DNA from: a virus
DNA length: 41,427 nt
Reading direction: 5' to 3' (one strand)
IMG/VR virus record: IMGVR_UViG_3300046005_000634
Location: 1 to 41,427 of that record
This document shows positions 9,819 through 32,542 of this stretch, in pieces. Below the pieces are notes generated by a model, which saw nothing but the letters and a program-made list of their open reading frames with translations, made no database searches and had not been told where the DNA came from. The number at the start of each line of letters is the position of its first letter. The stretch's first letter is position 1. The position numbers and the translations under genes are program-made.

Positions 9819-9827
9819 TAAAAAACC

Positions 9828-17446: not shown

Positions 17447-17458
17447 AAATTTCACCAA

Positions 17459-17530: not shown

Positions 17531-17557
17531 GTTTAAATTCTTTAAAATGGTAACGAC

Positions 17558-18174: not shown

Positions 18175-18395
18175 AATTTCGCTACGTTAAAGTTTATTTG
18201 TTTTGTTTTAGGTCTACCAGCACTACGATTTAAAATTAGTCTTTCAAGTGTATCTTTGTTGTAAATCGCGTGAGGTTTTGTTTTACCTTCAACATGTCCA
18301 ACTGGTTCAATGCCGCTATTTTCTACTTGCTTATAAACAGTAATCAGCAGCATATTGTTTTCTTTAGCGAAGTCTTTGATTGTTATTGTTTTCAT
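18168..18395 (-). CDS. Small helix-turn-helix DNA-binding-like protein
   Basis: 75 residues. MKTITIKDFAKENNMLLITVYKQVENSGIEP reads as a helix-turn-helix of the type used to read a target, followed by VGHVEGKTKPHAIYNKDTLERLI, like MerR/excisionase-style wings, and a basic end (RPKTKQ). It is coupled by ATGA to the dut stop. Partner and target are unknown. Confidence 0.55.
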   Translation of the reverse strand: MKTITIKDFAKENNMLLITVYKQVENSGIEPVGHVEGKTKPHAIYNKDTLERLILNRSAGRPKTKQINFNVAKLW

Positions 18396-18829
18396 ATTCC
18401 AGTTGTGCCAAAACCTGCGCTATTGCGCGTTGTGTCATTGCTTAAACTGTCCACCTCAATAAACCCGTCAACACGCGCTAACGGTAAAAGGCACATTTGA
18501 GCTATTCTGTCATTCGGATTAACTTTGTAGGTTTCATTACTGCGATTCCAGACAGATACTTGGATTTCACCACGATAATCACTGTCAATAACACCGATTA
18601 AGTTACCCAAAACAATGCCGTGTTTGTGACCTAATCCACTACGCGGCATAATTAAACCTGTCCACCCGAATGGGATTTTCATTGCGAGACCAGTTGGAAT
18701 CAACAGCGTTTCATTCGGTGCAATGATTGTTGAATGGCTGATGCAAGCGTGTAAATCAACACCTGCCGCGCCACTGGTTTGAAATTCTGGAATGGTCGCG
18801 TTTTCACGCACTTTTGCTATTTTTATCAC
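18392..18829 (-). CDS. dut: dUTPase
   Basis: 145 residues, standard length for trimeric dUTPases. All five motifs are visible in order: SGAAGVDL, PRSGLG, GVIDSDYRGEI, DRIAQM and RNSAGFGTTG. The enzyme turns dUTP into dUMP and pyrophosphate, limiting uracil in phage DNA and feeding ThyX just upstream. Its start lies 26 bases inside the upstream basic-protein gene and its stop overlaps the next start (ATGA), so it is translated as part of the early operon. Confidence 0.93.
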   Translation of the reverse strand: MIKIAKVRENATIPEFQTSGAAGVDLHACISHSTIIAPNETLLIPTGLAMKIPFGWTGLIMPRSGLGHKHGIVLGNLIGVIDSDYRGEIQVSVWNRSNETYKVNPNDRIAQMCLLPLARVDGFIEVDSLSNDTTRNSAGFGTTGI

Positions 18830-19232
18830 GATTTTTCTCCCTTAGTTTTTTTGCATTGTTGTTTTTTTTGTCGCGCCACGCTTGAATACCGTGAGCCATG
18901 ATGAATTTTTCTTTGTACTTTTGAGTGTAATTTCTGCATTTTTCAGCATTATCCTTTCTCCATTGGCTTAAATAATAGGCGTTTTTATCACGCAACACCT
19001 TCATTTTTTCGGGATTGTTTTTTCTGTAATCGCGCATTCTTTGAAGGTGCTGTTGTTTGCTTTTATTTCTTTTTACGTTGTAAACAATATATGGATTCTT
19101 GATGTTTTTGGTTGCAATCGATTTAAAAATATCATTTGAATCTTCAACTTCATCTAATAGCTTAATCTTTTCAAAATCACGTTTTACAGATAACCGAGAA
19201 ACATAATAAGCAATATCACCAGTTTGTTGCAT
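18804..19232 (-). CDS. Basic, lysine-rich protein of unknown function
   Basis: 142 residues, very basic and Asn/Lys-rich. The part RMRDYRKNNPEKMKVLRDKN, then WRKDNAEKCRNYTQKYKEKF resembles the spacer found in HNH/endonuclease VII-like phage proteins, but no HNH or zinc residues follow, so it may be a remnant or a nucleic-acid-binding protein. GAGGTGAG lies 8 bases before the ATG at 19232. It overlaps dut by 26 bases and the preceding gene by 17. Confidence 0.5.
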   Translation of the reverse strand: MQQTGDIAYYVSRLSVKRDFEKIKLLDEVEDSNDIFKSIATKNIKNPYIVYNVKRNKSKQQHLQRMRDYRKNNPEKMKVLRDKNAYYLSQWRKDNAEKCRNYTQKYKEKFIMAHGIQAWRDKKNNNAKKLREKNRDKNSKSA

Positions 19233-19389
19233 CTATGCTCACCTCTAAACCACAATCAATACACTGCTTAATTTTACGGCTGCGAAACTGTGCAAAATGC
19301 GTGTGTTTGCATTCGTACTGTGACTTAATGCTGTAAGCAACAAATCCCATTCCAATTAAGCCAACGATAATTATGTAAATAAATATCAT
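19216..19389 (-). CDS. Small membrane protein with zinc-ribbon-like tail
   Basis: 57 residues from ATG 19389, which overlaps the thyX stop as ATGA; a start at 19440 would run 17 residues into thyX and is less likely. Residues 2-19 are a transmembrane helix (IFIYIIIVGLIGMGFVAYS). After it come C..H.H and CIDC (residues about 27-46), which could bind one zinc ion. Unknown function; location between thyX and a basic protein gives no clear hint. Confidence 0.55.
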   Translation of the reverse strand: MIFIYIIIVGLIGMGFVAYSIKSQYECKHTHFAQFRSRKIKQCIDCGLEVSIDATNW

Positions 19390-20264
19390 AAATCCACCGA
19401 TTGGCGGTGTTGAATCCATCCTTTGAAGTTTCCACTCCAAGCAAATGAAAACCTATTTATATCCTTGCTAACGTGTGTTGCACCTTCTTGATAAAGTAAA
19501 TCGCCAAAACCGCTATTAAAAGAATGTTTAGCGTGCCGCATTGGCTTTGCCTGATGCTCAAACGGAGAAAGATGTTTATCAGCAAGCAATCTTTGAGCAA
19601 GATCTAAGTCTTTTTCAATGTCAGGTTTGCTGTTGTCGTGATTCAAATATGACACACGGGCGCAACGCGCCGCGCTGATTAGCAGCAAGTCTTCTACCGA
19701 AAAATCACCGTTAAATTCATTTTGATTTAAATACGGCGCGTGCCATTCACCATTACTTAATAATTCTGGCATTGATTCATCCATTGCAGTTTTCATAGCT
19801 TGAGCCAATTCCTGCATTTCGGGTTGTGCTGCATGATGCAAACGCAATGCAAAAAAGTTATCCCATTCTGTAGCTGTTACAACGACTTTAACGGTTGAGA
19901 ATGGCTCGAGTAATCGGTTTATCCACTGTTTATGTACATGATGATGGTCTAGCACGGTTGCGCCAGAAATAACTGCATTTTTAACTACATTCCATGCTTC
20001 TTTTGCGTAAAACATATCGCAATCGCTTATTATTTCATTTGACTGCATACCGCTTTTATTTTTCATAAAAACAGGAGTTGCATTGCTATTTAACGCATCA
20101 ATCATTTTCTGCACTGGAACGGCGCGGCTTGATTGTGCAGAACGACTAAACATTCTGTGCGTGTTGAATTGAGCCAATAAAAAACGCTCAAATTCTAATT
20201 CCATTGTTGTGATTCTGATACCGCTTTCACTAATTGAATCGGCGATTATTTTTGCTGTTGTCAT
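19386..20264 (-). CDS. thyX: Flavin-dependent thymidylate synthase (ThyX)
   Basis: 292 residues. The ThyX signature is present in a divergent form: THRMFSRSAQSSR at 35-47, where the classic motif has RHRxxSxNxxSxR. Also seen are ARCARVSYL, HLSPFEH and a C-terminal GNFKGWIQHR. ThyX makes dTMP from dUMP using FAD, NADPH and methylene-tetrahydrofolate. With dut two genes downstream it forms a dTMP-supply pair. The start overlaps the small zinc-finger gene by ATGA. The first Arg of the usual RHR is Thr here. Confidence 0.88.
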   Translation of the reverse strand: MTTAKIIADSISESGIRITTMELEFERFLLAQFNTHRMFSRSAQSSRAVPVQKMIDALNSNATPVFMKNKSGMQSNEIISDCDMFYAKEAWNVVKNAVISGATVLDHHHVHKQWINRLLEPFSTVKVVVTATEWDNFFALRLHHAAQPEMQELAQAMKTAMDESMPELLSNGEWHAPYLNQNEFNGDFSVEDLLLISAARCARVSYLNHDNSKPDIEKDLDLAQRLLADKHLSPFEHQAKPMRHAKHSFNSGFGDLLYQEGATHVSKDINRFSFAWSGNFKGWIQHRQSVDL

Positions 20265-20428
20265 TTAAACCTACTGTTTGCTGGTTTGTGGTCATAAATT
20301 GAAATATAAGCACTTGGCTTTTTTTCGGTTGTTGGTGTTGGTTCAAGTGTTTCACGCGCTACTTTTGAGCATTTATCTGTGTGTAACTTGTGCGTTCTAC
20401 TATGTTTGCAAATAGGGCATTTATACAT
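20261..20428 (-). CDS. 55-residue zinc-finger-like protein
   Basis: Short ORF with GGTGA before ATG 20428 and a TGA overlapping the thyX ATG. It starts MYKCPICKHSRTHKLHTDKC: CPIC, then H..H and a further Cys can make one zinc site. A Pro/Thr/Lys linker and SAYISIYDHKPANSRFK follow. Unknown function; coupling to thyX and conserved-looking zinc ligands argue it is a real gene. Confidence 0.6.
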   Translation of the reverse strand: MYKCPICKHSRTHKLHTDKCSKVARETLEPTPTTEKKPSAYISIYDHKPANSRFK

Positions 20429-20437
20429 ATTTCACCG

Positions 20438-20815
20438 TTAATAAAAAAGCAACCCGCCGAGTTTTATCGGCGTGGTTTTCGTCTTGTATCGTTTGCCGAG
20501 TTTTAACGTGTTGAAATAAACGTAATTTGGTTTTATGCCTTTTACGCTTACTTTGTTTAGCGATTGTGACAGCGACCGTGATAGTTGCCATGCGTTTTTG
20601 TCCTTTTCGCCTATCGGTTTAGGCGGTGTAATTTTATATTTCGATGTCCATGCAAACTGCCGATGCCTTGCTAATTCTTTACATGGTTTTTCACGGTTTA
20701 GCGTTGCGCGGTTGCGTAGCACTTGCATTGTTGCAATTTGCGCCGCTATTGGTTCGCTGCGTGCTTCACGGTATGAAACCAATGCAAAACACAGAGCGGC
20801 TGTTATGGCACTCAT
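20438..20815 (-). CDS. Cell-wall hydrolase, SleB-like
   Basis: 125 residues. ITAALCFALVSYREARSEP, AAQIATMQVLRNRA, QFAWTSK and a final YVYFNTLKLG...LGGLLFY follow the order of the SleB/Hydrolase_2 family (EARGE with catalytic Glu, VLNR, QFSW, IGxHxFY). The His normally near the end is Leu here. Family members cut peptidoglycan. It is coupled (ATGA) to a 32-residue membrane protein upstream, like a holin/hydrolase pair, although the main lysozyme is elsewhere. No signal peptide beyond the domain's own first helix. Confidence 0.65.
   Translation of the reverse strand: MSAITAALCFALVSYREARSEPIAAQIATMQVLRNRATLNREKPCKELARHRQFAWTSKYKITPPKPIGEKDKNAWQLSRSLSQSLNKVSVKGIKPNYVYFNTLKLGKRYKTKTTPIKLGGLLFY
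20443..20472 (-). terminator. Hairpin plus T6 before the zinc-finger gene
   Basis: CGCCGA / TCGGCG 6-bp stem (20455-20472), inside the 3' end of the hydrolase gene. On the minus strand it is followed 6 bases later by T6 and then GGTGA and ATG 20428. The spacing from stem to T-run is longer than in a good terminator. Confidence 0.35.
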
Positions 20816-20910
20816 TTTGCAGTGTGCAAGTAATGGATAAAAGAAACTAACAAAACAACCGTTAATCCTTCGATTGCTTCAATAAATGCGTACCAGTCTG
20901 AAAAATTCAT
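20812..20910 (-). CDS. 32-residue single-helix membrane protein, possible holin
   Basis: From ATG 20910, which has AAGGA 7 bases upstream; a longer reading from 21018 would run through the leader hairpin and overlap the previous gene. The short protein has a soluble MNFSDWYAFIEA start, a helix GLTVVLLVSFIHYLH and a Lys end. The stop overlaps the hydrolase start as ATGA. The pairing with a peptidoglycan hydrolase suggests a holin or other membrane helper, by context only. Confidence 0.5.
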   Translation of the reverse strand: MNFSDWYAFIEAIEGLTVVLLVSFIHYLHTAK

Positions 20911-20922
20911 AAGTAATTCCTT

Positions 20923-20944
20923 AAAAAAGAACCGCGTCTGCGGC
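20923..20944 (-). terminator. Small hairpin plus T6 before the 32-residue gene
   Basis: CCGC/GCGG stem extended by one G.U pair that exists only in the minus-strand RNA, then T6 and AAGGA. It is weak (4-5 bp), but has the same layout as other leaders in this operon. Confidence 0.4.
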
Positions 20945-20962
20945 AAGAGTGAGGAGGTGCTT

Positions 20963-21217
20963 TTAACAGGTTGTATAATTTGCCCAGTCGGCAATAAAAA
21001 ACGGGTTTTCATCTTCAATTAAGCAATCATATTTTGTTCTAAGATGTGTTTTGTACAAATAACGCATCTCTTTTGTTTGTGTAAAGTCGGTGATTGCTTT
21101 TTGATCCACTTTACGACGCGCCAAAACATCTTGAAATTTGCTTGATAAATCTTTAAAAGCGATACCACGCATAATTGCGCCACTCACTAAAAGATTGTCG
21201 ATAATTTGATTTGCCAT
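20963..21217 (-). CDS. Hypothetical early protein, 84 residues
   Basis: MANQIIDNLLVSGAIMRGIA, then a basic stretch LARRKVDQKAITDF and an acidic, aromatic end. No family recognised; no membrane helix. A TTAGGA ribosome site lies 8 bases before ATG 21217. It has its own promoter candidate and hairpin leader, which suggests it begins a sub-operon covering the small membrane protein, hydrolase, ThyX and dUTPase. Confidence 0.5.
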   Translation of the reverse strand: MANQIIDNLLVSGAIMRGIAFKDLSSKFQDVLARRKVDQKAITDFTQTKEMRYLYKTHLRTKYDCLIEDENPFFIADWANYTTC

Positions 21218-21225
21218 TTTGATAT

Positions 21226-21344
21226 TCCTAAAAAGTTAATTGAGTTACTGGAAAGCAACCGTTTCAAACATATCCGCATAAATTCTAAATAGTTAAATGC
21301 TTCCCAGTGATTAAAATTATATTATAAATTATTACCCAAGTAAA
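21226..21344 (-). promoter_or_regulatory. Promoter and hairpin leader before the 84-residue gene
   Basis: Minus-strand TTTACT (21339-21344), 17-base spacer, TATAAT (21316-21321). Downstream, an 11-bp stem (21298-21308 with 21247-21257) includes a G.U pair possible only in the minus RNA. It is followed by TTAACTTTTTAGGA (21226-21239), which contains the ribosome site and is identical to that before the exonuclease gene at 28046-28059. The -35 matches that of the early promoter at 29460. Confidence 0.6.
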
Positions 21345-21727
21345 TAACATTTTTTAAATGCTTCAATCGCGCCCTCATAACCAATCGCTACACACGCGAA
21401 CGCGCCTAGCTTTTGAGCGTTTAACAGGTAATCAATTTGCTCTTTTGAAATGGTAGCGCATGGACTTCGTGACTTTAATTCGCAAACAAAAGGCGGGTTT
21501 GCTGGAATGATTATGTCAGCAGCTCCAGTTGTTAAACCTTCGGCTTTTTGCTTTTGAATTTGCATAGCTGAACGCTTGCCTTCATTTCTAACGTGTGTTG
21601 CAATCGCGCCATATTGTGGATATTCACGGCGTAGCTTTGCAAAGAATGTCATTGCGTGTTGGCTTTCGCTTGCCGTGTCGAGTTTATCTGGTGTGCCGAA
21701 TAGTTGTATTTCAGGCGGTAGTTTCAT
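21332..21727 (-). CDS. VRR-NUC domain nuclease
   Basis: 131 residues, the usual size of stand-alone phage VRR-NUC proteins. Visible catalytic pattern: E21-x-Q23, HVRNEGKRS near 45-53, D71 in TGAADIIIP, E83-x-K85 in CELKSRS, and Q97. This is a PD-(D/E)XK fold that can act on branched DNA, likely in replication-fork or recombination-intermediate processing. Start overlaps the HNH gene stop by ATGA; GAGG precedes it. Confidence 0.85.
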   Translation of the reverse strand: MKLPPEIQLFGTPDKLDTASESQHAMTFFAKLRREYPQYGAIATHVRNEGKRSAMQIQKQKAEGLTTGAADIIIPANPPFVCELKSRSPCATISKEQIDYLLNAQKLGAFACVAIGYEGAIEAFKKCYLLG

Positions 21728-22314
21728 TTTATTGCCTCGTGTAATTTGGCTAATGTTTGAATGACTGGCTTTAGTTCTTTGTGTTCATTTAGCCAGTTAT
21801 AAGACTTGCAAAGCCTTGTAAATTCGCCGCGTGGTATTAGCATCAAGTTATCAATATCGCAGTTTAAACGGTTGTTATCTTTAAAAGAAACAATCATGCC
21901 GTCTGGTATTTTGCCGTGATGTTGTTCCCATACCCAACGATGCTTTACAACAAAGTTTTTTGAAGCGCGTTGATGCTCGTTTGTAACTTTAATTCTAAGC
22001 CAGCGATTATCTTTTACTGATTCATAACCAACGCCTTTTGTATGTACATCATGTTTTGGCTTAAACCATGTTTTTTTGCAGGCTTCGGGGCAATAGCCTT
22101 TTTTGCCTTTGTTCCAAGTCTTATGTCCTGTCTTGAAATTTGATACTCGAACCATTTTTAAACCAAGTTCGCGCCTGCAATGATTTCTAATTGCTTCGAC
22201 GTTTTTATTTTCGTTAAACTCACGATTGAACAATGCGGTTAAGATAACGCGGTCAAGAATCGGGTGACGCTTTAAAAAAGCGTCTTGTTCTGGTGTGTAA
22301 GTTCTTTTTCCCAT
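21724..22314 (-). CDS. HNH endonuclease with N-terminal SANT/HTH-like part
   Basis: 196 residues. Residues 5-50 (YTPEQDAFLKRHP...NVEAIRNHCRREL) look like a Myb/SANT helix-turn-helix. A linker with TGHKTWNKGKKG, common in free-standing phage homing nucleases, follows. The HNH core is at about 122-160: VVKHRWVWEQHHGKIPDG, VSFKDNNRLNCDIDNLMLI. It may be a mobile homing enzyme inserted in the operon. It overlaps both neighbours by 1-4 bases, so it is well integrated. Confidence 0.85.
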   Translation of the reverse strand: MGKRTYTPEQDAFLKRHPILDRVILTALFNREFNENKNVEAIRNHCRRELGLKMVRVSNFKTGHKTWNKGKKGYCPEACKKTWFKPKHDVHTKGVGYESVKDNRWLRIKVTNEHQRASKNFVVKHRWVWEQHHGKIPDGMIVSFKDNNRLNCDIDNLMLIPRGEFTRLCKSYNWLNEHKELKPVIQTLAKLHEAIK

Positions 22315-22544
22315 TATTGCAGTATCGCTGGTAATGTTTTGCGTTCATAATTCGGTGTGTCATAAACGGCGTTTTGAGCATCTAAAACTAAACGCGCGTT
22401 TGCAATGACATTTTGGCTAATTGCAGATATTGCTTTTGTACGTTCAATTTCTGTTTTGAGTTCGTCGCTGTTTAGTGATTCATTGCCCAAGCGTTCAAGC
22501 TGTGCAAAAAGATGATTGTTTAAATCTGTGAGTGTGTTTTTCAT
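22314..22544 (-). CDS. Conserved small phage protein, 76 residues, unknown
   Basis: Sequence MKNTLTDLNNHLFAQLERLGN, then ELKTEIERTKAISAISQNVI and ARLVLDAQNAV, ending TLPAILQ. It is fully helical with a heptad feel, resembling small proteins often found in phage replication blocks. No function known. TGGA precedes the ATG and a palindromic repeat lies in its leader. Stop and next start overlap as TAATG. Confidence 0.6.
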   Translation of the reverse strand: MKNTLTDLNNHLFAQLERLGNESLNSDELKTEIERTKAISAISQNVIANARLVLDAQNAVYDTPNYERKTLPAILQ

Positions 22545-22562
22545 TTTATTTATTCCAGTTTT

Positions 22563-22577
22563 GCACGTCCTTGTGCG
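22563..22577. repeat. Palindromic repeat copy A
   Basis: TGCACGTCCTTGTGC(GT), partly self-complementary (GCAC/GTGC). It is nearly identical to copy B at 28066-28082 (one-base insertion). Both sit in the leader of a minus-strand gene. Confidence 0.5.
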
Positions 22578-22586
22578 TTTAAAAAT

Positions 22587-23138
22587 CTAAATTTTTGACA
22601 TATTTAAAAACTTTTCCATAACATCATGAAAGTTATGAAGGTGTTTTTTGTCGATAAAATAACTTTTTGAAAATCTTTGAGTTATTCCTGTGTCAAAAAT
22701 CTTTTCGCCTTTTTCTATACAGACGGCATTTTTTATAAAGTCGTCACGTTTAATAAATCCATACGGCTTGATAAAAGAAAGGCTTGAATCAGTAAGAAAA
22801 AAAGCATATCCGCTTATGTTTTCTTGCTTTAAACAGTGCGGACTAACCTGCCCAACTAAATAATCATAAATGCTCACCTTGCAATCAATGGATAAATTAC
22901 AAATTTTTAAGTCTTCATCGTCATAAATATAGGGCGAAGAAATATCTTTTTTGTAGTCTATTTCATTTATCCTGCAAAATTCAGCAAGCCATAATTGCGC
23001 GTATTTACCTGTCGTTATGCGTTGCATCTTTTGATGCCCGTCTTGCCACCCGTTATAGTCAAACGTGTGGCTAATTGATTCAAGCGCATACATCCGCGCC
23101 TCGTTCAAAATTGCGCTATTCGCAGGATATTTAAACAT
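22587..23138 (-). CDS. PD-(D/E)XK-like nuclease candidate next to methyltransferase
   Basis: 183 residues. Residues about 40-60 (ITTGKYAQLWLAEFCRING-like) then D65...DDED at 73-76...IDCK at 84-87 followed by VSIYDY give an E..D...D-x-K arrangement typical of PD-(D/E)XK nucleases. Beta strands GYAFFLTDSS and YGFIKRDDF follow as in restriction-enzyme folds. The ATG lies 8 bases inside the end of the ParB-methyltransferase gene. A restriction or site-specific nicking role is possible; alternatively a repair nuclease. Not proven by sequence alone. Confidence 0.5.
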   Translation of the reverse strand: MFKYPANSAILNEARMYALESISHTFDYNGWQDGHQKMQRITTGKYAQLWLAEFCRINEIDYKKDISSPYIYDDEDLKICNLSIDCKVSIYDYLVGQVSPHCLKQENISGYAFFLTDSSLSFIKPYGFIKRDDFIKNAVCIEKGEKIFDTGITQRFSKSYFIDKKHLHNFHDVMEKFLNMSKI

Positions 23139-24858
23139 TATTAAACCTGTTTTCTGCGATTTGAATGTATAGCGGATTCATTTCAAAGCCAATGCAACGA
23201 CGTTTTGTTTTAATTGCCGCCACTCCAGTTGTGCCACTACCCATGAATAAATCTAAAACCAATCCGTCATCAGGGCATGATGCTTTAATAATGCGCTCGA
23301 TAAGCTCCACGGGCTTTTGAGTTGGGTGGTCGGTTCTATCTGCGTTTTTGTTATCAACGCAAGGAAAACGCCACACATTAGACGGACTTTTGAACTCGTA
23401 AGAAACGCCTTTATATTCCCTTACGTTTTCTTCACTGCGTTCCAATTTTACGCTTTCAGAATCTTCAAATGTTTTGTCTGTTTTGCTGAAATACAAAATA
23501 TCTTCATGGCGATTTACCCACAAACCGCCGCCTGCGCCTTGAATTGTGTCCCATGTTATCCAGTTACGATAATGAAAACCAATTGAATCCATGCGGTGTT
23601 GAATGTGACTTAGCATTCGATTGATGCCGAAAACATAGATTGAACCTGTAGGCTTTAATACGCGAAAGCAATCCGTCAACCATGTTTCGCACCAATCGGC
23701 AAACTCTTTGCCACTGCCGTAAGAGTCCCATTCTGCTTTGTCCATGTTATAAGGCGGGTCAATACAAATTAAATCAACTGATTCACTCAATAAGTTTTTG
23801 ATTAACACTGTCGAATCACCTTGCGTTAATTTAGGCATTAAGCGTTCTCGCTCTGCCAGCTCTGCTAGCTCCTTATTGCGTTTAGCTTGCTCTGCTATTT
23901 CAGCATCAGTTAATACGCGGCTATATTTGACCTCTTGAATAGCATGGTTGTTGCAAAATGAAACAACGGATTGATACTCGGCTCGAATAGATTTAATGTC
24001 AAAATAATCATCAAGCGATTTTAAATTTTTAGTGAATATCTCGCGTTGGTCGTATTTATAGGCTACAGGATTGTGAATGTAATACTCCACGCCATCACGG
24101 GTTTCTGTGCCATCACGGGTTTCATTGCTAAATAGCGTAACAGTTGATAACTTTTCAAGACTTGAATTTATTTCAGCAACGGCGTTTTCAATGCGCTTTG
24201 CGGTTGCTGGAACGGTTGCGATTTCTTTAAAATCCGCCGTCATCCAGCCTAATAACTGAACCGACTTAACGCGCTGTACTGCGCTTTGAACATCTTTAAC
24301 GCTCCAGTCACATTTGATTAACAAGTCTGTGAGCAATTGCCAGTGTTCAGAATCGGCTTTGCTGATTTCATAGAGGTGGCGTGGTTTGTCTTGAACTTGT
24401 CGGCACGTGCCGATAAGTGAGCTATAAACTTTTGCTGCATTAACCCATTCACCTAATGAATCTTTGCTTTTGCCGATTTCATCAGCATAGCTTTTCAATC
24501 CGCTACCTTTTACGCCTTGCGCTTTGCCTACCATTTCAAGCGCATGAATGCCTATTTCAAGCGCAAGCAACTCACCTTGATTGTTTGCTTTCACCAGTTC
24601 CATATAAGCCGTGTCATCGTCCATTTCAGTTATCCAGCATGGCACGGAATCTAAACCAGCTTTAATTGCCGCTTGATAGCGGTGGTGTCCACTGGTGATT
24701 TCAAAGTAATCCGCAACAGGTCTAACATGAATTGCGTGACGTGGTTCAAAACCGTTTTGTAAGCCAGCAACGATGCCGTCAATCACGTCGTCACGCATAA
24801 TTAGGCGTGGGTTTTTAGGGTGTGGTTTTAAATCTGCAATCTTTACTAATTCAATCAT
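23131..24858 (-). CDS. ParB-domain DNA methyltransferase fusion (575 residues)
   Basis: Residues 1-100 are a ParB/Srx-like domain (LKPHPKNPRL, then TSGHHRYQAAIKAG at 55-68). A helical middle resembles ParB's DNA-binding part (LKSYADEIGKSKDSLGEWV). The C-terminal part is an amino-methyltransferase: DPPY at 367-370 and FMGSGTT at 538-544, with HPTQKPVELIERI before it. The DPPY-first order is the beta class (N6-adenine or N4-cytosine). A TRDG tandem duplication sits at about 247-257. Target site unknown. Preceded by a terminator-like leader; overlaps the nuclease candidate by 8 bases. Confidence 0.88.
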   Translation of the reverse strand: MIELVKIADLKPHPKNPRLIMRDDVIDGIVAGLQNGFEPRHAIHVRPVADYFEITSGHHRYQAAIKAGLDSVPCWITEMDDDTAYMELVKANNQGELLALEIGIHALEMVGKAQGVKGSGLKSYADEIGKSKDSLGEWVNAAKVYSSLIGTCRQVQDKPRHLYEISKADSEHWQLLTDLLIKCDWSVKDVQSAVQRVKSVQLLGWMTADFKEIATVPATAKRIENAVAEINSSLEKLSTVTLFSNETRDGTETRDGVEYYIHNPVAYKYDQREIFTKNLKSLDDYFDIKSIRAEYQSVVSFCNNHAIQEVKYSRVLTDAEIAEQAKRNKELAELAERERLMPKLTQGDSTVLIKNLLSESVDLICIDPPYNMDKAEWDSYGSGKEFADWCETWLTDCFRVLKPTGSIYVFGINRMLSHIQHRMDSIGFHYRNWITWDTIQGAGGGLWVNRHEDILYFSKTDKTFEDSESVKLERSEENVREYKGVSYEFKSPSNVWRFPCVDNKNADRTDHPTQKPVELIERIIKASCPDDGLVLDLFMGSGTTGVAAIKTKRRCIGFEMNPLYIQIAENRFNNV

Positions 24859-24869
24859 TTTATTTCTCG

Positions 24870-24945
24870 CATAAAAAAAGCCGAACTTTCTAATGTTGTC
24901 GCACGGGTCAAGAAATTTACCCCAACATATAGAAAATACGGCTTT
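24870..24945 (-). terminator. Long hairpin and T7 tract directly before the methyltransferase gene
   Basis: Stem blocks AAAGCCG/CGGCTTT (24877-24883 with 24939-24945), TTCTA/TAGAA and ATGTTG/CAACAT total 18 bp, with a 4x4 internal loop and one bulge. The 24-base loop holds a further GGGT/ACCC pair on the minus RNA. T7 follows on the minus strand, then the ribosome site GCGAGA. It separates helicase from methyltransferase. Confidence 0.75.
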
Positions 24946-24988
24946 GTTTAATTTCTTGTTTTAATGAGTGCGAATCACAAAACGCATT

Positions 24989-26758
24989 TTACACTAAAAC
25001 ATCTTTGTTGTAACCATAAACCTTGAAAAACCCAGTTTTATCTTTTTGGTACGTCACGGTTTTAATACTCAAGTTTTGTGCCAATTCAAACTCGATTTGC
25101 AATGCCATTTGTTTCGGCGTGGACTTGTTAAACCACACTAAAAACGAGCGTGTCGGCGTTGTGAATTTCACTTTTAAGCACTCATTACCTGCCTTTGAAA
25201 GTGTCGGTGTCACTTGAACGTCAAGACATTCTTCTGTCTGCAAAATGGTTGCATCTTTGATTTGCGCGTGTTCAAGTTTTAGCTTGTCATTCGGATCTAT
25301 CAATTCAGTTTTGCAATTCGCACAATATCGCGCCGCTATATCATTTTCATGGTTACATTCTAAACACTCTTTAAACGTCCAACGATACGAACAACGGTCA
25401 ATCACACCACGATTAACAACTGTAAAAGTACAACGCCTGCCATAATGCGCTGGCATTGCGCCTAAACCTTCAACTTCGATGCGATTACCTTCTAAATCTA
25501 GCAAATAACCGTTATCGTCAATCGCTTGTTCTGCGTCAACGTCACGCCGTTTTGAAAATTCATTAACGCCATTGCAAGCAGGGCATTTTGCCTTAACTGG
25601 TACACCGACTTCACCGCCGCCACTTGCTTTGATTTCAGGATTAAACACATCACCATCAGGGCAATGGCGTTCAATGTTTTCAGCATAATCCAAAACTAAG
25701 CAATCCGATTTACCATCGCAAATACGCAAACCACGCCCGATAATCTGCTGCAGCAATGACACGCTTTCAGTGGCGCGTAAAATCGCTATAGTGTCACAAT
25801 TTGGGGCATCGAACCCAGTCGTAAGCACTGCAACATTCACTAGATATTTAATCGCGCCACTTTTGAACCGCAACAAAATAGATTCGCGTTCATTCGCTGG
25901 TGTTTCACCTGTGACAATCTGACTTAATCCACGCGGTAACGATTCCATTACCTCATGCGCGTGTTGAATGGTTGCAGCGAAAATCATCACGCCTTTTCTG
26001 CCTTGCGACTTTTCAACAACATCCGCAACAATCGAACTGGTTAATCGACCTTTGCCGATAAACGCTTTATCAACGGCTGCACTGTCAAAATTACCCATGC
26101 GGTTTTGAGTTAATCCGCTAGTGTCATAATGCGAGTTAGTTGCACCAATTACAGGATTTGATAGAAAGCCTTGTTCAATCAATTCACGCGCATCTAAACG
26201 ATAAACAAGCCGCTTAAAATAAGGCTCTTTTGCTTGCGTATCGTCTAGCATCTTGCCGCTAGCATCAATGGCGAAAATGTACCCTTGAGATAAACGGTAT
26301 GGGCTTGCCGTCATTCCGATAACGCGCAAATTTGGATTAACCAATAAAAGCGAATCAATGATTGATTTCACGGTCGGGCTAATTTTATGCGCTTCATCTA
26401 AAATAACAGCACAGAATTTCGAGCCGAATCTATGAATTTGATTTTTTACACTAACTGGAGTTCCAATAACCATTGCATTTTTTAAGCAAGTTTCACCGAC
26501 ACTAGCAGAAAATAACGACACGTTACTGCCTGTCATTCTTAATTTTTCGGCATTCTGTTGTAATAACTCACGCGATGGAACTAAGCATAAAATATGCTTG
26601 CCGTTGCTGATTTTGTGTAATTCATTAGCAAGCGCGGCGCAAACTAAACTTTTACCCGCTCCAGTTGGTAGCTCAATAATGCAGCTTTCTTTTGTTGATT
26701 TAACCCAATTTATAGCGGCATTAACAGCGTCATCTTGATAATATCTAAGCTTCATCAT
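24989..26758 (-). CDS. DEAH-box superfamily 2 helicase with zinc-finger tail
   Basis: 589 residues. PTGAGKS at 31-37 (Walker A), DEAH at 121-124, TASPYRL at 150-156 and QIIGRGLR at 338-345 (motif VI) define an SF2 helicase of the type common in phage replication modules. C-terminal Cys clusters (CPAC near 390; CLEC...CANC near 470-490) suggest zinc binding. Likely unwinds DNA for replication or recombination. GGAGG precedes the double ATG. Confidence 0.9.
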   Translation of the reverse strand: MMKLRYYQDDAVNAAINWVKSTKESCIIELPTGAGKSLVCAALANELHKISNGKHILCLVPSRELLQQNAEKLRMTGSNVSLFSASVGETCLKNAMVIGTPVSVKNQIHRFGSKFCAVILDEAHKISPTVKSIIDSLLLVNPNLRVIGMTASPYRLSQGYIFAIDASGKMLDDTQAKEPYFKRLVYRLDARELIEQGFLSNPVIGATNSHYDTSGLTQNRMGNFDSAAVDKAFIGKGRLTSSIVADVVEKSQGRKGVMIFAATIQHAHEVMESLPRGLSQIVTGETPANERESILLRFKSGAIKYLVNVAVLTTGFDAPNCDTIAILRATESVSLLQQIIGRGLRICDGKSDCLVLDYAENIERHCPDGDVFNPEIKASGGGEVGVPVKAKCPACNGVNEFSKRRDVDAEQAIDDNGYLLDLEGNRIEVEGLGAMPAHYGRRCTFTVVNRGVIDRCSYRWTFKECLECNHENDIAARYCANCKTELIDPNDKLKLEHAQIKDATILQTEECLDVQVTPTLSKAGNECLKVKFTTPTRSFLVWFNKSTPKQMALQIEFELAQNLSIKTVTYQKDKTGFFKVYGYNKDVLV

Positions 26759-26992
26759 TTAAAACCTCCCCTGCATATTTGTTATTTTTTCGAGCGCGTT
26801 ATCAAATTCAACGCCGCTTCGCATTTGATTTGGGTGTCCGTCTTGTACTGACAATTCAAGTGGCTCACCCGCGCTAAAAAACACAATAGCGCGGGGCAAA
26901 CCTTTTGAATCTAAACCAACGCGAATAAACGACACTTGTTCACTGTTAATTAGCAATAATTCTTCGCTCTTAGTTTCGATTTCAACAAACAT
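26759..26992 (-). CDS. Hypothetical protein, 77 residues
   Basis: MFVEIETKSEELLLINSEQV, then SFIRVGLDSKGLPRAIVFFS and LELSVQDGHP. A small beta-rich protein; no family recognised. It starts within the stop codon of the 57-residue gene (TAATG) and is followed by the helicase with no gap, so it is co-translated with the replication set. Confidence 0.5.
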   Translation of the reverse strand: MFVEIETKSEELLLINSEQVSFIRVGLDSKGLPRAIVFFSAGEPLELSVQDGHPNQMRSGVEFDNALEKITNMQGRF

Positions 26993-27165
26993 TACAATCT
27001 ATCCTTTAATTCTTTACGCTGTTTTGGTGTCATCTTTTCAAAGCATCTAAAAAATGAAAGCCAAGCAATAGGACAATCGTTCAATAAGTCAAACAAAAGC
27101 AAATCAATTTCAGCTTTTTTTGCAATCATTTCTAGCTTGCTGCGTTCAATGTATTTATCGTTCAT
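26992..27165 (-). CDS. Hypothetical helical protein, 57 residues
   Basis: Short ORF, overlapping the exonuclease stop (ATGA) and the next start (TAATG). It is helical and charged: MNDKYIERSKLEMIAKKAEI, then a hydrophobic LLLFDLLNDCPIAWLSFF and KMTPKQRKELKDRL. The two overlaps argue it is a real gene. Function unknown. Confidence 0.55.
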   Translation of the reverse strand: MNDKYIERSKLEMIAKKAEIDLLLFDLLNDCPIAWLSFFRCFEKMTPKQRKELKDRL

Positions 27166-28037
27166 TTTAACGTCCAGTAACTTGTTGTTGATTCATACGC
27201 GCTTAAATCCGCATCGGGCAATAATTCAGCAATGGCGTTTTTATAGCCGATTGATTTGCGAGTAACGCGCGTTAGTTTGTGTTCGCCGATATTGCTTTCA
27301 TTTTCGGCACAATCCTCAATAATCTGTTTTAGCATCAAATCCGATAAATCTTGCGATGCTTTGATTTCTGCTTTGAGTTTTAAATACTGCTCAACTCGAT
27401 ACGATGTCATATCATTTTCGATAGTGTCATGACGTGATTTTAAATGCACTTGATTTTGCAATTCTTCGAGAAATTCATCGTAAAACGCGCGTAGTTGCGG
27501 CAGGATTTCATTTACATATTTTGGATTGTAATTAACGTAATCCAATCTGTAGTCGTGTGTGTTCCACTGAAAAAAGTCACAGAATAGCTTTTTAGTAACA
27601 AACATTTGAATCTGAACCTGTGCGTAATAATGCGGTTGTTCTTCAATAGACTTAAAAACAGGGCTTGTATCGTTACGCAATGAAAAAGGGCATTTAAATT
27701 CTACAATGCCGCGTCCATCATCAATAAAGCCGTCTGGACTTGCACCTAGCCACAATTCATGCGTGTGAAATCCTGTTGTTTCAACGATGTTGCCTGTTTT
27801 AAGTTGGTAATCAGTACGAGCTAAATGTTCATTCATATTGCCATATTCAGTTGCAACATTACCAACAAACTCACTTAATGCGCCGTGCCATTCACGCACC
27901 ATCGAGCGCATAACGTCTTGACGCTTGCGAAATGGTGATAAACCTAAAATCGCCCCGACATTTGAAGCTGTTATACGTCCGATACGTGCATTAAACCAAT
28001 CGTCACTGCCTTGTTGTAATTCTGTTGTATTTTCCAT
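27162..28037 (-). CDS. YqaJ/lambda-exonuclease-like recombination nuclease
   Basis: About 291 residues. From the first ATG (28043) residues read: RIGRITASNVGAILGLSPF at 21-39, LGASPDGFI at 99-107 (D104), GIVEFKCPF at 112-120 (E115, K117) and HYYAQVQIQM at 138-147. This is the YqaJ exonuclease core. TTAGGA is only 2 bases from the ATG at 28043 but 8 from that at 28037, so the latter is preferred. It degrades one strand of double-stranded ends, preparing ssDNA for annealing with the SSB and Sak4-like neighbours upstream. Confidence 0.87.
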   Translation of the reverse strand: MENTTELQQGSDDWFNARIGRITASNVGAILGLSPFRKRQDVMRSMVREWHGALSEFVGNVATEYGNMNEHLARTDYQLKTGNIVETTGFHTHELWLGASPDGFIDDGRGIVEFKCPFSLRNDTSPVFKSIEEQPHYYAQVQIQMFVTKKLFCDFFQWNTHDYRLDYVNYNPKYVNEILPQLRAFYDEFLEELQNQVHLKSRHDTIENDMTSYRVEQYLKLKAEIKASQDLSDLMLKQIIEDCAENESNIGEHKLTRVTRKSIGYKNAIAELLPDADLSAYESTTSYWTLK

Positions 28038-28045
28038 TGCCATAA

Positions 28046-28082
28046 TCCTAAAAAGTTAAGTAAATGCACAATCCTTGTGCGT
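28046..28082 (-). promoter_or_regulatory. Exonuclease leader: palindromic repeat copy B and shared ribosome-site motif
   Basis: A GCACAA-GGA-TTGTGC hairpin (28066-28082 region) is close to copy A at 22563. It is followed on the minus strand by TTAACTTTTTAGGA (28046-28059), which is identical to the motif before the 84-residue gene at 21226-21239. Confidence 0.5.
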
Positions 28083-28101
28083 GAATCCTGTTTAAGCGTG
28101 A

Positions 28102-28614
28102 TTAAAATGGAATTTCGTCAAGGTCGTTTGCTTCTGGCATTTGTGCTGCAGTTAGCGGTTGTGGTGCTGGTGCTGCTTGCTGTGAACGCGGTGAAACTTT
28201 GCTAATCCAGTTACCGCTTTTGTCGTTAAACTCCCACACCATAACCTTGATTAACATTGGCTTGTTGAGTAATGCAAACAACGCGCCGTCTGTTGGACGT
28301 TCGCCACTTGCAACCAATTTTCCACCCGTTGCGTTTTGGTCGATCGCTGCAAACATCTTGATTGCGTTATCAAGTTTTTTGCTGTCGGTTTCCATTAACT
28401 GGATTTTTTGAAATACAACACGGTTAGCGTATTGAGACGGTTTTGTCACTTGCCATTTAGCGTTAATGTAGCTTTTGCCTTCGTAGCTAGTCCAACCACA
28501 CTCAACAATCATTGCCTCGCAGGTTGTGTTATCAGGAATTAAAGCATTTCCGCCTAATTCGACTTCACCTGTGCTTTTTACCGCTTCGCCCGTTGATAAT
28601 TTAAAGAAACTCAT
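28102..28614 (-). CDS. SSB-like single-stranded DNA-binding protein
   Basis: 170 residues. The core (TTCEAMIVECGWTSYEGKSYINAKWQV...) fits a DUF669-type phage OB-fold protein with aromatic residues. A Gln/Ala/Pro linker leads to an acidic C-terminal tip, DLDEIPF, like the SSB tip that recruits replication partners. It lies between the Sak4-like ATPase and the YqaJ nuclease. GGAG in the end of the previous gene serves its start. Confidence 0.75.
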   Translation of the reverse strand: MSFFKLSTGEAVKSTGEVELGGNALIPDNTTCEAMIVECGWTSYEGKSYINAKWQVTKPSQYANRVVFQKIQLMETDSKKLDNAIKMFAAIDQNATGGKLVASGERPTDGALFALLNKPMLIKVMVWEFNDKSGNWISKVSPRSQQAAPAPQPLTAAQMPEANDLDEIPF

Positions 28615-28615
28615 T

Positions 28616-29389
28616 TTATTCTCCGATGTTGTTTAAAAATTGTGATAAAGGATTGATACCGAATTGCACGGTTAAATCGTCCGCGATGCCCATGCGGTTT
28701 TTTGAGATGCTGCTAGCTGCGCTGGTGCATTGCAAAATACGTTCTCCGCTGCTACGCGCTTTTGACTTTTTGTTATCGTCTGTCATGACAAATGTTTCAA
28801 GTCGTAAGAATCCAACCAAATCAACGTCATCTACATAATGCGCTACGCTTTGCTTATTCATTTTTAAGCCGAAACGATTGTGTGCTGGTGCGTCTGGAAG
28901 GTCGATTGTTTCAATGTCGGCGTGACCAATAAACACGATATTCATGTTTTTCTTTTCAACCAAAATGCCGCAAGCGTTTCTGATTCTTTGGTGGTAATTG
29001 CTTAGGATTTGATAGCCTGCACCATAACCACCACCAGCTTTTGCAAGTGCTTTGTTGTCGAATTGGTTTGTACCTGATTTGCTGCTACCTTGTACGATTT
29101 CTTCAATAAAGATTCTTTCTGCTTTCGTGATGCTGTCTATTACTAGCGTTTTGTAGTCATGATCTTCACTAATTAACGCCATTAGCTGTGACGTTGCGTC
29201 ATTGAATGAATGCGCCACTGGGAATGCGTCAGGGCGGATTGCGTTTGGAATGGACTGCATACCATCTTCAAACCGAATGAAAATAGGTTTTGGAAATGTC
29301 GCTGCGAGGTTTGTTTTGCCAATACCTGCGCCGCCATAAATTGTGAACAGCTTGAACTTGTCAGCTGGTTTTGAAATTGTGTTTAACAT
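28616..29389 (-). CDS. RecA-fold ATPase, Sak4-like (AAA_24)
   Basis: 257 residues. GGAGIGKT at 19-26 is Walker A; TLVIDSITKAE near 82 is Walker B. The pattern PKPIFIRFEDGMQ, KALAKAGGGYGAGYQIL, MNIVFIGHAD is the AAA_24 group containing Sak4, ATPases that help phage SSB anneal ssDNA. First gene of the early minus operon (CGGAG site), directly after the early promoter. SSB and exonuclease follow, forming a probable recombination set. Confidence 0.8.
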   Translation of the reverse strand: MLNTISKPADKFKLFTIYGGAGIGKTNLAATFPKPIFIRFEDGMQSIPNAIRPDAFPVAHSFNDATSQLMALISEDHDYKTLVIDSITKAERIFIEEIVQGSSKSGTNQFDNKALAKAGGGYGAGYQILSNYHQRIRNACGILVEKKNMNIVFIGHADIETIDLPDAPAHNRFGLKMNKQSVAHYVDDVDLVGFLRLETFVMTDDNKKSKARSSGERILQCTSAASSISKNRMGIADDLTVQFGINPLSQFLNNIGE

Positions 29390-29544: not shown

Positions 29545-29712
29545 ATGCTCACATTAGACGAAGTTCGAGAAAAATTAAAGCCGTTCAAATTAACCGAAGT
29601 GGCAAAAGCAACGCGCATTGATTACATGAGATTGTTTCAAACAATCAAAGGAACGCGCCCTGCTTATTATGACGATGTTAAAAAACTTTCTGACTACTTG
29701 GAGGCGTTATGA
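29545..29712 (+). CDS. Small Cro-like helix-turn-helix regulator, 55 residues
   Basis: MLTLDEVREKLKPFKLTEVA then KATRIDYMRLFQTIKGTRPA and YYDDVKKLSDYLEAL. This is a compact five-helix XRE/Cro-type fold: helix 2-3 (LTEVAKATRIDYMRLFQTI) reads as the HTH. AAGAG precedes the start; the stop overlaps the primase start by ATGA. It is the first plus-strand early gene and a good candidate repressor of the divergent promoters. Confidence 0.7.
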   Translation: MLTLDEVREKLKPFKLTEVAKATRIDYMRLFQTIKGTRPAYYDDVKKLSDYLEAL

Positions 29713-31586
29713 TTGCTGCGGGTTTATTTGATGCAATGCTTGATGCTGGTTTTAATCCGCCAAATAACACTGATGGAGAAATAACACGTTTTAGCACCAA
29801 TGGAAAAACACACAACAAAGACGGATGGTTAGTTGTTTTTGATGACAGTGGCGCGTGTTTTGGTTGCTGGCGCGAAGGCACTCGATTTACTTGGAGTGAT
29901 AAATCAAAGTTTGAAACTATGACGCAACAAGAGCGTGATGCTTTTGAGTTCAAACGACGTATGGCAATGCAACAAGCTGAATTTGAGCGTGAGCAACGTC
30001 AAAACTTTGCAGCTAGTGAATCACTAGAAGAATGGCAAAACGCGCCTGTGTGTGAATCACACGCCTATTTAGAGCGTAAATCTGTTGCCGCGTGTGAAAA
30101 TTTGCGCGTAGGTTTAGACGGGCGGTTGATTGTGCCAGTTTTTGAATCGAGTGAAAAAATCCAATCGCTGCAATACATTGATAGCGAAGGGAAAAAGCAA
30201 TTTAAAACCGATGGCAAAATGAAAGGCGGATTTTTTGTTGTGGGTGATATTGGCGCGGATTGCTATTTATGCGAAGGATTGGCAACTGCTTTAACAATCA
30301 ATTCTGCAACTGGCAAAGGTGTTATTGTTGCGTTCAGTGCTTCAAATATGCCAGTTGTTTATGAGAAATTCAAAACTCATAACGTCACAGTTTGCGCCGA
30401 TAATGACGCGCATGGCGTAGGCTTGAAATACGCTAACGAATGCAAAGGCGCAAAGGTTGTTTATCCGCCTGTTATTGGGCAGGATTTTAACGATATTGGA
30501 ATTGAAGGCTGCAAGGCGTTCTTTGGTGTTGATAAAAACAAAGATAAGCCTTTTTTAGTTCCCGTATCTGAAATAATGAACAATGTCACGCCGCCTAATT
30601 GGTTAATGAAAGGCTGGATTGAGTACGCAAGTATGGGAATTATTTTTGGTGAGAGTGGCGCGGGTAAATCATTATTCACACTCGATTGGGCTTTTTGTAT
30701 GGCAAACGGTTTAGATTGGCACGGCAACAAAATAAAGCAATGCAGCCACGTTTTGTATATCGCTGGTGAAGGCGGACGCGGCTTTGCAATGAGAATTCAA
30801 GCGTTACAACAAAAATACGAAATGAAAACAAAGGATAACATATTTTTTTCAAGCCGTAGCGTTGATTTGCTTGATAAAAAATCAGCTCAACAAATAATTG
30901 ATAGCGTTGCATCAATGGAATTAAAGCCTGCATGGATTGTTATCGACACACTTCACAGAAACATGAACGGCGATGAAAATAGCGCGGCTGATATTGCATT
31001 GTTTTTGGATTCGCTTGAGGTGTTGCGTGATTTATACGGTTGTGCTGTTTATCCAGTGCATCACAGTGGATTATCTGATAAAGGGCGCGTGCGTGGTAGT
31101 AGCTCAATTAAGGGCGGTATGGATGCCGAGTATTGCGTCACGAAAGGCAATGATTTTGAAGTTACAATCACTTGCACCAAAATGAAGGACGCACCAAAAC
31201 CACCGCCGATAAAAATGATTATTACACCTGTTGACTTAGAAGGCGATTGCTGGACAGATACAGATACGGGATTGCAAACGCAGGGCGTTTATTTGACTTA
31301 TGGCGGCATTGACACTTCAAAAACAAAAGACCTCGATGAGCGTGACGCATTGGCTTTTGACGCAATGAAATTAGCTATTGAAGAAGTTGGTATTATGGCA
31401 TCAGAAAACATTACCATTGCAGTAGAAAACACCAAGATTGTAAATGTTGAGGTATTGAGAAAGTATGTCTACTCAACAACAAAGGGAAAAAACAAATCAC
31501 GCGACTTTGACAGGTCAATTGAATCCCTTAGAAACCGCAGATATATTGGCGTTGACGGCGAATGGTGCTGGTTAATGGACGAGTAA
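29709..31586 (+). CDS. Primase-helicase (TOPRIM plus RepA-like ATPase)
   Basis: 625 residues. The N-terminal part has GWLVVFDDSGACFGCW. The TOPRIM core is at about 185-235: CYLCEGLATALTI (E189) and VTVCADNDAHG (D231, D233). Walker A GESGAGKS is at 314-321 and AWIVIDTLHRN gives Walker B; VYPVHHSGLSDKGRVRGSSS continues the RepA/AAA_25 hexameric helicase pattern. It likely primes and opens the fork. It follows the Cro-like gene and ends just before the GGTAT cluster, a possible origin. Confidence 0.88.
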   Translation: MIAAGLFDAMLDAGFNPPNNTDGEITRFSTNGKTHNKDGWLVVFDDSGACFGCWREGTRFTWSDKSKFETMTQQERDAFEFKRRMAMQQAEFEREQRQNFAASESLEEWQNAPVCESHAYLERKSVAACENLRVGLDGRLIVPVFESSEKIQSLQYIDSEGKKQFKTDGKMKGGFFVVGDIGADCYLCEGLATALTINSATGKGVIVAFSASNMPVVYEKFKTHNVTVCADNDAHGVGLKYANECKGAKVVYPPVIGQDFNDIGIEGCKAFFGVDKNKDKPFLVPVSEIMNNVTPPNWLMKGWIEYASMGIIFGESGAGKSLFTLDWAFCMANGLDWHGNKIKQCSHVLYIAGEGGRGFAMRIQALQQKYEMKTKDNIFFSSRSVDLLDKKSAQQIIDSVASMELKPAWIVIDTLHRNMNGDENSAADIALFLDSLEVLRDLYGCAVYPVHHSGLSDKGRVRGSSSIKGGMDAEYCVTKGNDFEVTITCTKMKDAPKPPPIKMIITPVDLEGDCWTDTDTGLQTQGVYLTYGGIDTSKTKDLDERDALAFDAMKLAIEEVGIMASENITIAVENTKIVNVEVLRKYVYSTTKGKNKSRDFDRSIESLRNRRYIGVDGEWCWLMDE

Positions 31587-31695
31587 TTATACCGTTGGTA
31601 TAGCGGTATGGTATTACGGTATAGCGATACATTTAGACTATACCTACCATACCCATACCTTTAGGTATGGTATGGTGGTATATGTATGGTATTTT
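31587..31695 (+). repeat. GGTAT repeat cluster, locus 2 (candidate origin or control site)
   Basis: Twelve GGTAT/ATACC pentamers in about 110 bp: eight on the plus strand, four on the minus. GGTATAG near 31619-31625 pairs with CTATACC near 31638. A longer palindrome spans about 31641-31681, where TACC(T)ACCATACC(C)ATACCT pairs with AGGTATGGTATGGTGGTA. T5 follows. The same design occurs at 6651-6872. It lies directly after the primase-helicase. Confidence 0.75.
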
Positions 31696-31857
31696 TAAGT
31701 TAGTATTATTTTGTGATTATGTTATAATTTGTATGTGGATTTTTAAATTTGGTTTCTAGCAGAACTGTTAAATTTAAAAATCTAATTTTTAACCCGATTT
31801 GTTTAACCTGTCTGCTAGCAGGTTCAGTGAATCGGGTTTTTTATTGGAGTTAATTTT
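31696..31857 (+). promoter_or_regulatory. Leader with TATAAT box and nested hairpins, possible attenuator
   Basis: TATAAT at 31723-31728 (weak -35). A perfect 13-bp inverted repeat, GATTTTTAAATTT (31738-31750) / AAATTTAAAAATC (31770-31782), comes next. A terminator-like hairpin follows: AACCCGATT (31791-31799) / AATCGGGTT (31830-31838), enclosing AACCTG/CAGGTT, then T-rich sequence and GGAG. CTAGCAGA (31757-31764) can also pair with TCTGCTAG (31811-31818), which would disrupt both. Confidence 0.6.
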
Positions 31858-32208
31858 ATGATTGATAGTTTTGATTTAATTGCCGTTTTAAAACAGGTTT
31901 GCAGAAGTGAAAAATGCGAATATGTGACAATACAAGATATTGTTAAAAGCAATAAATACAAAAAACACTACATTATGGACGATGGAAAGTTTAATTTTCC
32001 TAATGCTAGTATAAATGTATGTTTAGAAATGCTTTTAAACGAAGGTTTTGTTTTTAAGGTTGATGGTTATTTTTATCCATCAGCTCGTGGATTAAGTTTT
32101 ATTGAATCTTTTTCATATAGCGATTTAGAGGATTTAGAAGATTGTCCAATTTTATTACTTGAAAAACAGGCATTAGCAAAGTGTGAATCTGATTATTTTG
32201 GAGAATAA
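31858..32208 (+). CDS. Winged-helix-like protein, unknown, 116 residues
   Basis: MIDSFDLIAVLKQVCRSEKC, then TIQDIVKSNKYKKHYIMDDG, NVCLEMLLNEGFVFKVDGYF and YPSARGLSFIESF. Strand/helix order and the 'domain decision' helices suggest a winged-helix fold. The end is acidic (DLEDLEDCPIL). GGAG is 9 bases before the ATG. Its structured leader points to regulation. No family recognised with certainty. Confidence 0.5.
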   Translation: MIDSFDLIAVLKQVCRSEKCEYVTIQDIVKSNKYKKHYIMDDGKFNFPNASINVCLEMLLNEGFVFKVDGYFYPSARGLSFIESFSYSDLEDLEDCPILLLEKQALAKCESDYFGE

Positions 32209-32210
32209 CA

Positions 32211-32378
32211 ATGGCACTTGCAGTTATTATTTCGATGGTGACAACATTTAGCGCATTAGGTCAACAACACATTAACTATGTGGCAAGTGTTGAAAGAATG
32301 AAAATGGCAGATTGCTTAACCATTAAGCAGTCAATAGACAAGCATCATGTTGTTGATTGCATCAAGGATTCTAAATGA
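32211..32378 (+). CDS. Small hydrophobic-start protein, 55 residues
   Basis: Short ORF after the winged-helix-like gene, preceded by GGAG in its last codons. MALAVIISMVTTFSALGQQH gives a possible membrane or secreted start; the rest is soluble with two cysteines (ADCLTIKQS, VDCIKDSK). The stop overlaps the next start by ATGA. Function unknown. Confidence 0.45.
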   Translation: MALAVIISMVTTFSALGQQHINYVASVERMKMADCLTIKQSIDKHHVVDCIKDSK

Positions 32379-32512: not shown

Positions 32513-32542
32513 ATGACAACGTGGCGCGGTTATGGTTATAAT
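32513..32542 (+). promoter_or_regulatory. Promoter candidate before the lysozyme gene
   Basis: ATGACA (32513-32518), 18-base spacer, TATAAT (32537-32542). One of the best sigma70 matches in the window and directly before the lysis genes. Confidence 0.6.

Follow-up and report, generated by a model that had tools for sequence, protein, structure and literature searches.

Phage leader RNAs in which a 5' hairpin loop pairs with the loop of an intrinsic terminator: a candidate conditional terminator

The window analysed here is a whole virus record, a stretch of 41,427 bases with a minus-strand block at about 16742-29389. The primase/helicase gene (29709-31586) lies on the plus strand, as do the lysozyme, terminase and structural genes, and relatives of the primase and the terminase are found in Alteromonas phage XX1924, Salicola phage CGphi29 and Jerseyvirus phages, with an identity below 60% in all. 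The leader RNA described below sits in the 271-base gap 3' of the primase gene. Between the primase gene and the leader, positions 31590-31690 are densely filled with GGTATGG/CCATACC repeats, and the repeats at the same place in relatives are quite different (ACATACAATACA in L003, L004 and L009, CCAACCAACC in L005 and L006, CGGTCGGTCGG in L010, and CGTACGTACG in L014); they are possibly phage-specific origin repeats. Farther downstream, a promoter-like ATGACA-18-TATAAT site (32513-32542, 11/12 matches) lies 5' of the lysozyme gene, its -10 box surrounded by an inverted repeat rich in GC, and similar sequence is present in L010 and L105. Elsewhere in the window, at 9780-9825, a -10 like box, TGCTACAAT, abuts a strong terminator hairpin flanked by CCTGTCG...CGACAGG, an arrangement kept in L214, L129 and L167. 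The features of the leader and the gene behind it are as follows.

31720-31728, plus strand: extended -10 promoter TGTTATAAT (-10 box 31723-31728), from sequence, with a predicted +1 at 31735
31736-31784, plus strand: hairpin H1, 17 bp, at the predicted RNA 5' end, from folding and covariation
31756-31763, plus strand: kissing strand CTAGCAGA in the H1 loop, from complementarity and relatives
31785-31790, plus strand: H1-H2 linker, 6 nt, from folding
31791-31838, plus strand: hairpin H2, the stem of the intrinsic terminator, with 8 nt in its apical loop, from folding
31811-31818, plus strand: kissing strand TCTGCTAG, the whole H2 apical loop, from complementarity and relatives
31837-31842, plus strand: T6 tract of the terminator, from sequence
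31846-31849, plus strand: Shine-Dalgarno GGAG, from sequence, with the ATG at 31858
31858-32208, plus strand: ORF116, the gene behind the leader, with homologues in G001 (46% identity) and G003 (34%)

The original prediction had recognized three elements in this gap, all of which are present: a perfect 13-bp hairpin (arms 31738-31750 and 31770-31782, 19 nt apart) that reaches 17 bp once folded, a nested terminator-like hairpin at 31791-31838 that ends in T6 just 5' of GGAG, and an 8-nt long-range complement of 31756-31763 with 31811-31818. It contained neither the promoter at 31723-31728 nor the other leaders in the window. The extended -10 box would place the RNA start at about 31735, one base 5' of H1. 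Folding of 31736-31846 gives -36.6 kcal/mol versus -16.7 +/- 3.1 for 200 shuffles (z -6.4), none of which is as good. The terminator form, the ribosome site, the start codon and the likely promoter are read from the sequence. As for ORF116, it had been described as winged-helix-like, and the order of its helices and strands would fit, but a Pfam match is absent and the structure model reaches a mean pLDDT of only 60. The best PHROG match has an E-value of only 0.03, and a viral scan with the ORF116 protein alone as query found no relative.

Four contigs found via neighbouring genes (L003, L004, L005 and L009) carry the same hairpin pair at the same place with different complementary loops, the loop pairs being TTCTGCTAGAA/TTCTAGCAGAA and CGACCAGA/TCTGGTCG. 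This type of leader, class I, now comprises 16 distinct elements from 12 viral contigs, with 11 different kissing sequences and one shared plan, counted after removal of duplicates (L004 = L009; L006 = L124 = L125; L167 = L161; L184 = L173). All leader copies come from IMG/VR contigs, and the set was assembled by pattern scans blind to loop pairing, a pseudoknot-free covariance model, a kissing detector and a complement search. Three elements (L003m, L123p and L173a) were first met via the pairing, and pairing-blind searches reached all three too. Judged by eye, class I elements made up 4/25, 5/49, 8/8 and 14/62 of the stretches returned by pattern scans, several contigs having been fetched twice, and the kissing detector gave 0 hits on 133 reversed sequences used as a control. 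In L123 (G008), two class I leaders with different kisses lie on opposite strands at 470-734 and diverge from one intergenic region.

The pairing is specific to each element. The H2 loop is complementary to its own H1 loop over 6-10 nt in 14/14 cases, and cross pairs between different kisses (n=172) reach 2-6 nt, with 162 at 4 or fewer, nine at 5 and one at 6. For 10 distinct kissing pairs, the summed own match is 74 versus 38.7 +/- 4.6 with random partners, and none of 20,000 permutations is as high. In a MAFFT alignment of seven sequences, made without regard to the pairing, the kiss helix has 98.2% of its cells paired, and both sides have changed at four of eight pairs; a second subset of eight sequences, also aligned by MAFFT, has 88.9% of kiss cells paired and both-side changes at 3/7. 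Sliding the alignments by 1-3 columns drops the pairing to 25-45% and 32-50%, respectively. L123p and L147 have kisses of only 6 bp and are misregistered in alignment A6, which lowers its counts. The two hairpins are both supported by RNAalifold with 10 sequences, 12 of the 28 pairs being changed on both sides. Compensating changes in relatives, whose absence was to count as one half of a refutation of the original prediction, were found, and this comparison bears out both hairpins as well as the kiss, together with their covariation.

In the stem cells of class I, G-U occurs 43 times versus 5 for A-C, an excess indicating that the molecule is RNA of the plus (sense) strand. Compared as sequences, covariation and G-U use show class I to be a functional sense-strand RNA. 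One may argue that the locus is a DNA-level operator or recombination site that is RNA-like in appearance only, as its inverted repeats and AT-rich stems would allow, but neither the G-U bias of the stems nor the placement of terminator and ribosome site on one strand fits such an element, and we find this scarcely credible.

The plan of class I is strict. The kiss strand is followed by the 3' arm of H2 with 0 nt between them, and the terminator directly by the ribosome site and start codon, both in 16/16 elements. In addition, TA[TA]AAT occurs within the 25-nt stretch at the element start in 14/16 elements versus 2.6% of background windows, and TGN-TA[TA]AAT in 10/16 versus 0.22%, the -10 count being biased for L147, L161, L164 and L173b because these were first found by a pattern containing TATAAT. 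There is no room for a promoter between a class I terminator and the ribosome site, and thus the gene would be transcribed only past the terminator. This anatomy suggests that class I genes live on conditional or leaky read-through.

The elements of this leader were originally thought to be three competing structures, which is not the case. H1 and H2 both stay formed when the kiss strands are forced unpaired, in 16/16 elements, and therefore the pairing is loop to loop. The kiss itself is indeed the knot that had been foreseen, but it leaves both hairpins formed. Likewise, the proposed terminator/antiterminator layout holds insofar as there is a leader RNA with a terminator right before the gene, whereas its other half fails, the pairing remaining in the apical loop with the stem uninvaded in 16/16. 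A longer antiterminator helix in the window (17-nt arms, 82% complementary) was dropped because the complement in relatives is limited to the loop. Hence, the leader resembles those of attenuators in its promoter, leader RNA and intrinsic terminator right before the gene (16/16) but differs from them in having no alternative helix that invades the stem, the long-range pairing being loop to loop in all 16.

A search for terminators with an upstream complement, together with a pairing-blind census of promoter-terminator-ribosome-site units, revealed two further classes. In class II and class III leaders of the same phages, complementarity indicates that an upstream segment is paired with unpaired parts of the 5'-UTR terminator. 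The window contains two class II leaders.

24873-24984, minus strand: class II leader upstream of the ParB/methyltransferase-like gene (23131-24858), from the pairing search
17460-17568, minus strand: class II leader before the Rha/antirepressor-like gene, from the pairing search, the gene being named by family match

In class II, a small 5' hairpin has its loop paired to a bulge in the terminator hairpin, whose apical loop in turn pairs with a linker, frequently TAAGAATT. In the leader at 24873-24984, CAAGAAATT pairs with AATTTCTTG in the apical loop and TCGCAC with GTGCGA in the bulge; in that at 17460-17568, the pairings are AAAGAATT with AATTCTTT and GTCGTTA with TAACGAC. The listed GTG start of the minus-strand ORF 16742-17509 falls within the latter leader, and its real start is likely the ATG behind the leader, giving MNDLILRDSKGELVV. 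The order of segments is kept in all nine instances of class II, the starts of the linker and apical-loop strands being 41 nt apart in eight and 42 nt in one. The H1/bulge pairing occurs with seven different sequences, three of which resemble one another, and in one case linker and loop need G-U to pair. Alignment A4, which covers 8/9 instances (L129 repeats the G001 sequence and was omitted), has 95.3% of cells paired between linker and apical loop and 66.7% between H1 loop and bulge, the latter partly misregistered, as the H1-helix columns of G001, G009 and G006 are out of register and lower the counts. In class III, the RNA begins with 10-11 nt that are complementary to, and pair with, a segment within the terminator loop (GTCAAAGTTT/AAACTTTGAC; in G001, GTCAAGTTATA/TATAACTTGAC). 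In L173, positions 2379-2620 hold a tandem: a class III leader and, without a complete gene in between, a further promoter with its class I leader.

In the pairing-blind census, 27/28 units of the phage group have an upstream complement of at least 6 nt to unpaired segments of the terminator, versus 4.0 expected when the upstream piece is shuffled in two-letter blocks, a procedure short of a full dinucleotide shuffle. The count first stood at 28/29, one terminator having been entered twice (L173, at 2608 and 2625); outside the group, 1/3 units has a complement. In addition, the window's member of the ORF116 family lies behind a class I leader and those of G001 and G003 behind class III leaders, and a gene beginning MSKAIAIV has a class I leader in L003 and a class II leader in G002. 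Since related genes thus carry leaders of different classes, the three classes are, as judged from their sequences, probably functionally equivalent. These observations also bear on the idea of an ordinary insulating terminator, whose loops would pair merely to speed folding and whose downstream gene would live on leakage. Every copy does have a strong stem and a T tract, and the neighbouring genes resemble exchangeable cargo, but the same insulator would be needed behind its own promoter before many genes, and the idea leaves unexplained why three architectures all keep a pairing to the terminator; we therefore consider it highly unlikely.

We propose that the leader RNA is probably, with real room for doubt, a conditional transcription terminator, attenuator-like in its layout and serving several phage genes. 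In this mechanism, polymerase would start at about 31735, and H1 would fold at the extreme 5' end and present its 8-nt loop. H2 would be the intrinsic terminator, and its apical loop, exactly complementary to the H1 loop, could kiss it. Transcription would then either end at T6, with an RNA of about 108 nt as its product, or read through into the gene, whose ribosome site lies 4 nt further; we infer that this read-through is regulated. Class II and class III leaders would probably play this role at other genes of these phages. Within class I, polymerase releases the H2 loop ahead of the H2 3' arm, so that an already folded H1 could capture the loop, and the pairing segment of class III likewise precedes the 3' arm of its terminator, so that this pairing could also form first. 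Moreover, the class I linker of 4-10 nt spans at most 30-66 Å versus 107-126 Å for H1, kiss and H2 stacked in line (a rigid-rod estimate), and a kiss together with fully closed hairpins would therefore be strained in cis. Any exclusion of the closed terminator by the kiss could come only from this geometry. Because the kiss can form first and the short linker strains closure, we slightly favour a kiss that, alone or through a bound factor, holds back termination and lets polymerase read through over one that strengthens the stop.

Several observations count against a conditional terminator. H2 by itself looks like a strong terminator, so that stopping does not require the kiss; at L167 4354, a unit of the group lacks a complement; and no switching ligand, protein or small RNA was found for the leader. 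In addition, the site at 32513-32542 could drive the lysis genes without the leader, and the L173 tandem, with its leaders a few tens of nt apart, is more easily explained by an independent small RNA. In the lambda pR'-tR' late leader, which works with Q, a terminator likewise comes immediately after the promoter and upstream of the lysis genes. The present leader is alike in this order, but a Q-type gene was not noticed here (no Q-model search), and copies of the leader also precede other genes.

An independent small RNA would act in trans and terminate itself, in the manner of c4 of P1/P7, its product of about 108 nt accumulating, kissing other nascent leaders of its kind and providing sequence-coded immunity or copy sensing. 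The unit is indeed a complete promoter-RNA-terminator, the kiss sequences vary between phages while the stems remain similar, and a kiss is shared in 0/9 same-class leader pairs per contig (a hand count, too few for significance). One class III copy lies directly 5' of another promoter, and several leaders precede genes resembling Rha, BRO-N or AntA antirepressor relatives, where BRO-N and AntA are our presumed names, a family match existing only for the Rha/antirepressor-like gene of the window. However, both partners are in one RNA, so cis pairing should win, and 16/16 class I elements immediately precede a start codon. The primase and TerL relatives, moreover, include Jerseyvirus and marine siphophages, which we take to be lytic, and no integrase or repressor was noticed among the window translations (no model search). 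A trans-acting small RNA therefore appears unlikely. Antisense kissing pairs acting in trans are familiar from ColE1 RNA I/II, which are transcribed from opposite strands and pair through loops of about 7 nt. The loops are fully paired in both systems, but both partners here belong to one RNA.

The c4 antisense RNA itself, which corresponds to RF01695 (PMC2864571), is a small phage RNA tied to antirepressor genes, with complementary segments thought to lie in loops (PMC12197685). The leaders share with c4 these complementary segments in loops and, sometimes, a place before antirepressor-like genes, but c4 pairs around the ant ribosome site (PMC12197685), whereas here the partner is the leader's own terminator loop. 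The 8 nt complementary to the H1 loop are those of the H2 loop, which lies 5' of the Shine-Dalgarno sequence, and c4-type pairing with a ribosome site was not found. In addition, Rfam at gathering score, c4 included, gave 0 matches in 135,127 bases including the window, and c4 (RF01695) was absent among the Rfam matches up to E 5 for window positions 31500-32300, a further point against a c4-like small RNA.

A put-like cis RNA has also to be considered, in which RNA polymerase, bound by the two hairpins, would become resistant to the leader's terminator and to later ones. HK022 put RNAs have two promoter-proximal hairpins, occur more than once per phage and act on elongation as nascent RNA (PMC9378689). 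The leaders are alike in size (about 70-110 nt), position near the promoter, two stem-loops and several copies per phage, these copies lying in different operons, as do putL and putR in that description (PMC9378689). However, put acts on downstream terminators and folds with a triplex, and the two put RNAs are similar in sequence (PMC9378689), whereas the loop sequences that pair are free to vary here, the second hairpin is a terminator in its own right, with T6, and the contact is a kissing loop. Suppression of distant terminators by put works through the beta' zinc-binding domain. A put-like role is thus distinctly doubtful.

As to occurrence beyond these contigs, DNA searches of cultured phages with the class I region, class II and class III returned nothing, and so did a search of plasmids with class I. 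A pattern scan of bacterial genome contigs gave seven stretches with the element in none, and model R1 found it in 0/3 and 0/369 bacterial genomes, the 369 representing one class, a weak negative since the genomes included none known to carry a match. No such element was met in the titles and abstract openings of the open-access literature searched.

In summary, the leader appears to be an RNA switch, of a type not described so far, that serves phage genes. Terminator hairpins are normally taken as autonomous; here, within a single phage group, leaders of three types all retain a covarying contact that joins an upstream stretch to the terminator's unpaired segments. More tentatively, and less likely than not, the three architectures, kissing-loop class I, doubly pseudoknotted class II and long-pseudoknot class III, may constitute a phage-wide RNA control code of interchangeable units, each with its own loop "password", which would act in cis and possibly in trans and decide, by way of the contacts to the terminator, both which genes are read through and which related phages can interfere with one another. 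If the contact controls read-through, it would be an undescribed form of termination control by tertiary contact and, if true, a natural source of mutually orthogonal terminator switches, and it offers a phage-wide regulon to look for elsewhere.
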